Source: Halorubrum trapanicum
GTDB taxonomy: Archaea > Halobacteriota > Halobacteria > Halobacteriales > Haloferacaceae
Direction: 5' to 3'
DNA length: 64,000 nt
NCBI RefSeq assembly: GCF_017873555.1
Contig: NZ_JAGGKE010000001.1
Location: forward strand, 310,001 to 374,000
Shown: piece after piece, positions 36,240-47,723 of the stretch
Position numbering within the stretch: the stretch's first letter is position 1
How the letters are laid out: each line of letters opens with the position of its first letter
Position numbers and translations under genes: made by a program
The notes under the pieces: generated by a model
Seen by the model: the letters and a program-made list of their open reading frames with translations, nothing else
Told to the model about the DNA's origin: nothing
The model's database searches: none

Positions 36240-36287
36240 GGATCTGGAGCGCTTTTCGGATCGGGCTTAAAAACGTCTGCGACTGGT

Positions 36288-36577
36288 TTTATAAACGAAT
36301 GCGGTGGCGCGTGCCTGCGAGGCCGCTACGCGGCCGAGCAGCACCGCGCGAGGGAGTCAGTCGCCCGGAGCGAAGCGACGGGCGACTGACGAGGCTGGGG
36401 AGGTGTGAGGTGCTGTGCGGTGCGGGGCGGGATTCGAAGGGGCAGCCGTGAGGCGGGCGCAGGCGACGGAAGCACTGGAGGGAGCGAGCAACGCGAGCGA
36501 CCGAAGCGCGCAGCGAGCGTGCGCCCGCCTCACGGCTGGGGCTTCGGTGGTGTCTGTGTCGATCGGTCATTTATAAG
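36288..36577 (+). repeat. Structured repeat element, copy 1
   Basis: About 290 nt bounded by TTTATAA at both ends. Stems read directly: P1 36307-36318 with 36338-36349 (bulged), closed over a P2 hairpin GGCCGC-TAC-GCGGCC at 36321-36335 with a GA/GA internal loop; P3 GTCAGTCGCCC (36356-36366) with GGGCGACTGAC (36380-36390) and a conserved GGAGCGAAGCG loop; long-range P4, a 19-bp pair 36443-36461 with 36520-36538. Copy 2 at 47310-47664 keeps every stem with compensatory changes. Probably a transcribed structured RNA or hairpin-rich mobile element; a TTAAAAA box at about 36267-36273 could drive it. Confidence 0.8.
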
Positions 36578-36700
36578 AACCATCGTCGTACAGCCGAGCG
36601 GCTGAGGCTTCGGAGACCTTCACCGGAGATCTACTGGCAACGATTTATAAGCGAGCGGCTTGGGCTTCGACGGACATCGTTGCGAGGCGGTCATTGATAA
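36578..36700. repeat. Truncated 3'-end copies of the structured repeat
   Basis: GAGCGGCT followed two bases later by GGCTTCG occurs at 36596-36612 and again at 36653-36669, each preceded by a TTTATAA motif (36570, 36644); a degraded third junction lies near 36694. The unit resembles the CGGCTGGGGCTTCGG 3' end of copy 1, suggesting nested truncated insertions. Confidence 0.5.
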
Positions 36701-47118: not shown

Positions 47119-47309
47119 GAGCCGGAGCGCGCGGCGGCACGGCGATCAGGGTGTGAGTGTCGTCCCGGCCGCACAGACAACAGGGGGTGTTCTTCAGTCC
47201 GGCGTACACGGTCAACCATATGGGCCGGAAGAGGGTGTGTGTTTTGTCGCGGAGAGGCGGTTTCCGGCGGCACGATATATAAATAGACACGAACCGCGAT
47301 GTCAGTTAC
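47119..47309. other. Intergenic stretch before repeat copy 2
   Basis: 191 nt with no gene found. It includes a strong TATA-like GATATATAAATAG at 47274-47286, which could drive the structured element about 45 nt downstream. Confidence 0.5.
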
Positions 47310-47664
47310 TTATAAATGAATGACGCGGTGGCGCGTGCCTGCGAGCGGCCGGTAGGCCGCGAGCAGCACGCGCGAGGTCGCCGGCGCTACGCGCCGGCTG
47401 CCAGAGGGACCTTCGGTCCCTCGCTGGAGTCGGTCGGCCGGAGCGAAGCGGAGGCCGGCCGACGAGGTTGGGGAGGTATGAGGTGCGGTTGCGGTGCTGT
47501 GCGGGGCAGGACTCAAAGGGGCAGCCGCGAGGACGGCGCAGGCGATGTAAGCACCGCAGGGAGCGAGTGAAACGAGCGACCGAGGAGCGCAGCGAGCGTG
47601 CGCCGTCCTCGCGGCTGGGGCTTTGGCGGTGTTCGCGATCGATCCGCCAGCAACAATTCATAAA
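47310..47664 (+). repeat. Structured repeat element, copy 2
   Basis: About 355 nt. Same layout and direction as copy 1, with P1 47331-47342/47363-47373, GA/GA loop, hairpin GCGGCC-GGTA-GGCCGC (47345-47360), P3 GTCGGTCGGCC (47429-47439) with GGCCGGCCGAC (47453-47463; one G-U) and P4 47522-47540 with 47599-47617 (19 bp, all Watson-Crick). Compared with copy 1, P3 and P4 change bases on both sides so pairing is kept. Copy 2 has two extra hairpins between P1 and P3 (47380-47398, 47404-47422). Confidence 0.8.
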
Positions 47665-47723
47665 CAGACAGCCACGAGGTCGAGGCTCACTTATAAACTG
47701 TCAGCATTACCGTTGACCAGATA
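47665..47723. other. Tail of repeat copy 2 with a further TTATAA junction
   Basis: After the TTCATAAA at 47657-47664 a short CAGCCACGAGG...GAGGCTCAC piece leads to CTTATAAA at 47690-47697, parallel to the truncated copies behind copy 1. Confidence 0.4.

Follow-up and report, generated by a model that had tools for sequence, protein, structure and literature searches.

A haloarchaea-wide family of intergenic repeats with a predicted two-domain fold maintained by base-pair covariation

Architecture of the two copies in the window

The window, a 64,000-nt stretch of the Halorubrum trapanicum genome, contains two copies of a structured repeat in the same orientation, which direct sequence reading places at 36301–36577 (copy 1) and 47325–47667 (copy 2). 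Copy 1 lies directly after an M20 peptidase gene, and the copy 2 locus adjoins an HxlR regulator. The two copies have common loops and stems that differ by paired changes, and both belong to a single family of intergenic repeats, approximately 250–340 nt long, that extends across the haloarchaea.

From 5′ to 3′, the hairpins P1 and P2 come first, followed by the hairpin P3 with a GGAGCGAAGCG loop and by a conserved G-rich stretch, GAGGCTGGGGAGG(C)GTGAGG. A variable linker then leads into the long P4 arm, and the element closes with a 3′ unit that terminates near a TTATAA box. The first bases of the conserved part are GCGGTGGCGCG, at 36301 in copy 1 and 47325 in copy 2, with a TTATAAA-type box ahead of them. 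All features of both copies are on the plus strand. In copy 1, the upstream box TTTTATAAAC (36287–36296) is target-like or TATA-like and precedes domain A, which comprises P1 and P2 (GCGGTGGCGCGTGCC...GCGCGAGGGA; 36301–36355) and P3 (36356–36390). The G-rich stretch GAGGCTGGGGAGG.GTGAGG and the linker occupy 36391–36433; the invariant columns of this stretch are kept outside Halorubrum as well. Domain B, the long P4 arm (TCGAAG-GGG-CAGCC...GGCTG-GGG-CTTCGG), spans 36434–36547 and encloses an inner motif GACGnAAGCAC/GCGCAGCGAG, and the 3′ unit (36548–36577) ends in TTTATAA. It is followed at 36578–36675 by two degenerate 3′-unit copies (GAGCGGCTGAGGCTTCGG..., TTTATAAGCGAGCGGCTTGGGCTTCG), whose 57-nt period recurs in other copies; the final ~57 nt of the element (GGCTGGGGCTTTGG...TTATAA) are also found as extra tandem units, exact or degenerate, at loci L018 and L074.

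Copy 2 is preceded by the box ACTTATAAATG (47308–47318) and follows the same order, with P1 and P2 at 47325–47377, P3 at 47429–47463, the conserved G-rich stretch and linker at 47464–47512, the P4 arm of domain B at 47513–47626, and a 3′ unit ending in ATTCATAAAC at 47627–47667. It also contains a nested 49-nt double hairpin (TCGCCGGCGCTACGCGCCGGCTGCCAGAGGGACCTTCGGTCCCTCGCTG; 47378–47426) that is absent from copy 1. A similar nested insert is present at the same place in approximately 11 of 33 inspected copies of the window genome; this double hairpin (TCGCCGGCG...CTCGCTG) occupies one fixed point in the element and is closely similar across these copies. In other copies, the P4 arm harbors further nested hairpins (e.g., GAGAGAGCTTCGCTCTC), and the nested hairpins may represent a separate, smaller repeat family.

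The original prediction held that the stems P2, P3, and P4 differ between the copies by paired changes around common loops, and each listed change could be read off the sequence. The P4 arm is CAGCCGTGAGGCGGGCGCA/TGCGCCCGCCTCACGGCTG in copy 1 and CAGCCGCGAGGACGGCGCA/TGCGCCGTCCTCGCGGCTG in copy 2, which differ by exactly three two-sided pair changes (T-A to C-G, C-G to A-T, and G-C to C-G). In P3, A-T is changed to G-C and C-G to G-C, in addition to one T-A to T-G change that leaves a G·U pair, and P2, enclosed by GA...GA, is GGCCGC/GCGGCC in copy 1 and GCGGCC/GGCCGC in copy 2. As single strands, both copies fold far better than shuffled sequences (z = –5.5 and –6.7 for copies 1 and 2, respectively).

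Abundance, range, and genomic placement

The element had been described as a two-copy repeat, which greatly understates its abundance: its 15-mer core, with one mismatch allowed, occurs at 113 sites in the 3.08-Mb window genome, and the family is order-wide and high-copy, with up to approximately 200 copies per genome. A BLAST comparison of copy 2 with its own genome returned at least 69 matches, with 40 of 259 first-look candidates scored. Other sampled Halorubrum genomes contain 6 to 186 core sites (0 to 2 for a reversed-pattern control), and the element was found in all 52 Halorubrum genomes searched. A 400-kb stretch of the complete genome G022 contains 27 copies, approximately one per 15 kb.

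A covariance model built on 19 copies matched 174 of the 243 genomes in the order, representing 60 of its 77 genera, with top scores of approximately 100 to 130 bits outside Halorubrum, so that further copies exist across haloarchaeal genomes. Of 292 genomes in the class, 183 contain a sequence pattern linking two conserved motifs, and the controls are near zero in most. A scan of named genomes gave matches in Halorubrum, Halobaculum, Haloarcula, Natrinema, Halovenus, Halosimplex, Haladaptatus, Salinarchaeum, Halopiger, Halobium, and others, together with a few in bacteria that are evidently due to chance. The motifs TGGCGCGYGC, GCGCGAGGGACGAC, GGAGTCGGCTGGGGAGG, GGGACTGAAAGGGGC, GACGYAAGCACYG, GAGGASCGCAGCGAG, and GGGGCTTTC recur in order outside Halorubrum around stems of unrelated sequence, which indicates real homology, and the architecture is kept in Haloarcula, Natrinema, Salinarchaeum, and others. 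Some copies outside Halorubrum appear to consist of the P4 domain alone. No match to the element was identified in a phage collection, and the few matches in a plasmid collection are haloarchaeal only. Genome G064, from another genus of the same family, has 72 core sites, and all those listed carry the variant GACTGAAAGGGGCAG; this variant is a second high-copy lineage outside Halorubrum.

The placement counts are approximate because the flanking genes were called with a simple script based on codon usage. Such genes were predicted for 137 Halorubrum copies, and 136 of these copies are intergenic, of which 51 lie between convergent, 71 between tandem, and 14 between divergent genes, compared with 60, 170, and 60 such gaps in the reference stretch. 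Between tandem genes, 45 copies run antisense to their neighbors and 26 run sense, a majority that argues against a simple sense 3′-UTR role; avoidance of promoters fits the placement better. In the first 400 kb of contig C1 of G022, 13 of 15 copies are on the plus strand up to approximately 232 kb and 8 of 12 on the minus strand beyond this point, a pattern suggestive of biased orientation along the chromosome.

TTATAA occurs within approximately 35 nt upstream of 65 of 151 Halorubrum copies and in 1 of 151 control stretches. At the right end, it was identified in 83 of 164 copies, and in 56 of 164 it is located at +33 past GGGCTTT. The box was also weighed as a promoter for the element, but its placement is poor: at approximately 20 nt from the 5′ end, it is too close to serve as a normal haloarchaeal promoter for an RNA containing P1. 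The TTATAA boxes at the ends and the 57-nt tandem 3′ units may be marks of original insertion or recombination sites.

Covariation, strand asymmetry, and evolution of the copies

Covariation was followed in 65 aligned P4 domains drawn from many genera, for which 28 pairs are predicted. Stem positions covary in this wider alignment, with double changes in 22 of the 28 pairs. Paired cells amount to 94.6% (70.9% in shuffles) and double-change cells to 406 (124 in shuffles); these cells, like those of the G·U counts below, are not independent events, and the figures give strength rather than probability. The covariation score of the consensus fold, 0.579, is above those of both controls, namely, shuffles (0.167, sd 0.009) and slid partners (0.05 to 0.11). 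In P3, 81 distinct stems were found, with Watson–Crick pairs in 535 of 567 cells. Judged from these sequence comparisons, the plus strand is predicted to adopt a conserved two-domain fold, with P1–P3 as domain A and the long P4 arm with its conserved internal-loop motifs as domain B, and this predicted fold is maintained by base-pair covariation.

The pairing is also asymmetric between strands. G·U, a wobble pair in plus-strand RNA, exceeds A·C, which would form a wobble pair on the minus strand only, by 46 to 15 in P4, 28 to 1 in P1 across copies, and 8 to 2 in P3 (82:18 overall), and one alignment pair is C-G in 39 sequences, U-G in 17, and U-A in 7, and never C-A. Of 230 sequences compared, 221 fold more stably as the plus strand, namely, 177 of 178 from Halorubrum and 44 of 52 from elsewhere. 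Together, the G·U excess and this stability indicate that selection or transcription favors plus-strand RNA. If a mutational strand bias were the cause, it would most simply imply plus-strand transcription because copies are present in both genome orientations. The suggestion that the element is a folded RNA thus gains strong support from cross-genus covariation, the G·U bias, and strand-asymmetric stability.

Many of the loci appear to be old. At the copy 2 locus, 21 of the 27 species with both flanking genes have the element, or a remnant of it, in the same position and orientation, and at the copy 1 locus, the element is present in 13 of 18 close relatives. Some copy 2 loci are empty: that of G028 has a single TATATAAAC, and occupied sites have a TATAAA-type box on each side. 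One empty site (L117) looks precise, and deletion between TATAAAC repeats would explain it equally well. At the copy 1 locus, where relatives have a full plus-strand copy, that of G028 (L360) is truncated and reversed and has a large deletion in P4.

In the sister pair G015/G047, all 12 of 12 sites are common. Some of these same-site pairs are almost identical, and others have common P1 and P2 but a wholly different P3 or P4. One pair shows clean double changes in P4 (CAGCCGCGAGGCAGAC/GTCTGCCTCGCGGCTG vs. CAGCCGGGAGGCGGAC/GTCCGCCTCCCGGCTG). Stepwise compensation thus accounts for only part of the difference between any two copies, another part being due to the exchange of whole hairpin modules. 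In G015, a copy at approximately 126.6–126.9 kb of contig C1 (L266–L274 joined, core at 126757) has an inverted P4 apex between intact outer stem arms, which is a natural hairpin-mediated inversion.

For copy 2, identity reaches 0.84 with paralogs and at most 0.725 with same-site copies, which means that its nearest relatives are paralogs rather than orthologs; the flanking genes are approximately 90% alike. The highest within-genome identity among the copies inspected in the window genome and in the G022 stretch is 0.91. Truncated or module-deleted copies are common, and hence not every copy can be essential. As far as sequence comparison can tell, these look like ancient loci that gene conversion homogenizes and that are under constraint as folded RNA, and not like the products of ongoing transposition.

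Explanations and relation to known systems

We consider it probable that these repeats are a haloarchaea-wide intergenic family whose fold is maintained, which acts as plus-strand RNA, is subject to gene conversion among paralogs, and spread at TTATAA-type boxes. Its RNA, whose expression is deduced here from sequence, would be a short non-coding RNA in its own right or a segment of intergenic or 3′-end transcripts. The unpaired conserved motifs, i.e., the G-rich stretch and GACGYAAGSAC/GASCGCAGCGAG, might be presented to a protein or RNP partner. Haloarchaea are polyploid, and gene conversion among paralogs would keep the copies of a genome alike, with stems renewed by compensatory change and hairpin swapping. 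The original spread probably took place by insertion or recombination at TTATAA-type boxes through some enzyme, and such spread does not seem to be going on at present. A bolder version, which we put forward only tentatively, is that the family represents a haloarchaeal ncRNA encoded at tens to hundreds of intergenic loci per genome, with inherited loci and with stems rewritten by gene conversion and compensatory change under selection for one fold, serving as a high-copy structural or regulatory RNP component of the chromosome for which no counterpart has been described.

Several other explanations were weighed against plus-strand RNA action. The repeats could be DNA-level palindromes of the REP/BIME type, in which DNA or cruciform sites between convergent genes are recognized by a nucleoid or topology protein and RNA is irrelevant. 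Enrichment in convergent gaps, depletion from divergent promoters, the almost exclusively intergenic location, high copy number, and very high Watson–Crick perfection of P4 all agree with this possibility. However, it does not sit well with the excess of G·U over A·C on one strand, the nearly invariable better folding of the plus strand, and the retention of long unpaired motifs in a fixed orientation inside the element, and we regard it as rather unlikely. Less likely still, palindromes might be kept by mutation, with template switching at hairpins and gene conversion perfecting or swapping stems without function. Wholesale P3 and P4 swaps between sister species, the inverted P4 apex, and nested hairpin inserts are what such a process would leave, but it predicts neither the bulges, internal loops, and unpaired motifs conserved across genera nor the G·U bias. 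A protein-coding origin, e.g., of a 119-aa minus-strand ORF at 47302–47661, has a negligible probability: the ORF is present, but it has no Pfam match, and the copies differ by non-triplet indels and inserts and by changes paired across stems.

The remaining alternatives concern mobility. The original prediction also allowed a hairpin-based mobile element, a possibility now weakened by sites shared between species, the lack of near-identical copies within a genome (best identity 0.91), and the 63-site genome G193, in which TnpA, TnpB, and reverse transcriptase were not detectable. A non-autonomous IS200/IS605 element, either a PATE or one bearing an omega-RNA, mobilized in trans by TnpA, would account for palindromes without inverted terminal repeats (no inverted termini were seen in the element) and for TTATAA at both ends; such elements are abundant in Haloquadratum (PMC3119063), and a copy lies within approximately 1.5 kb of 4 of 20 TnpB loci. 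TnpB matches number 13, 21, 19, and 0 and Y1 TnpA genes 4, 1, 2, and 0 in the window genome, G022, G038, and G193, respectively. However, G193 has its 63 element sites with no Y1_Tnp match, RAYT- or TnpA-type, and G038, with 19 TnpB matches, has only approximately 6–8 sites; copies near TnpB have no fixed position, and their proximity is not far from that expected from density. On these grounds, and with sites stable between species, dependence on IS605 is unlikely, and we assign the IS200/IS605 explanation a very low probability, although an extinct mobilizer may have been involved. Reverse transcription of an RNA, as for a SINE-like element or a group II intron fragment, is more improbable again: many dispersed copies resembling structured RNA, with a sharp 5′ end and repeated 3′ units, would suit it, but no near-identical copies were found and no RVT_1 domain was identified in four genomes (the window genome, G022, G038, and G193), three of them element-rich or element-carrying.

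The family is apparently undescribed, its kind being that of interspersed structured repeats. Consistent with the initial impression that no named family applies, Rfam searches at gathering and relaxed thresholds gave nothing credible in the window and no score above the gathering threshold, and no matching description was found in the literature, although subscription journals and preprints fall outside the search and a prior description is possible. BOX/ERIC/RUP-type repeats are likewise modular, intergenic, and structured, with optional internal modules, but are sequence-homogeneous and restricted to few genera; the element, compared here with a general description of these repeats, differs in that its stem sequences change across most haloarchaeal genera and its loops and pairing are kept. 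Bacterial REP/BIME/REPIN sequences share tens to hundreds of copies, an extragenic location, hairpin formation, and enrichment near gene 3′ ends, and REPs are often paired with a RAYT transposase. REPs are 20–40 bp long and often GTAG- or CGTC-tagged (PMC3733652), and a REP survey in the literature takes in some archaea. The element is not such a tagged palindrome: it has two domains over approximately 250–340 nt, its internal loops are conserved, and its covariation extends across the order.

Among haloarchaeal sequences, the PATEs, SMRs, and MITEs of Haloquadratum walsbyi are also short and transposase-free, some with near-terminal palindromes and nested insertions (PMC3119063). PATEs have strain-specific insertions and IS605-type ends (PMC3119063), whereas the sites of the element are kept between species, its covariation is RNA-type, and it is present in a genome in which TnpA and TnpB were undetected. 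Haloarchaeal omega/sot RNAs, stated to be RF02656 and RF02657 (PMC12558985), are similarly structured and multi-copy, but the window has no Rfam match and the element has no fixed place relative to tnpB, which also weighs against an omega-RNA-bearing origin. Twenty-two intergenic ncRNAs of unassigned function, conserved in multiple Halobacteria, were reported from halite (PMC7002113). Some of them could be members of the present family; in the accessible part of that report, and compared by description only, they are presented without a comparable family, copy number, or fold.

The element is thus present in most haloarchaeal genera and, in one Halorubrum stretch, approximately every 15 kb, and yet is absent from Rfam. 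If it acts as RNA, the haloarchaea would possess a structured RNA in massive copy number, together with a partner. If it is instead a DNA repeat, numerous loci in each genome evolve in concert with the fold retained; such a natural system would be unusual, and concerted evolution and compensatory change could be measured in it directly. Either way, the annotation of haloarchaeal intergenic regions and the interpretation of RNA-seq data would change.
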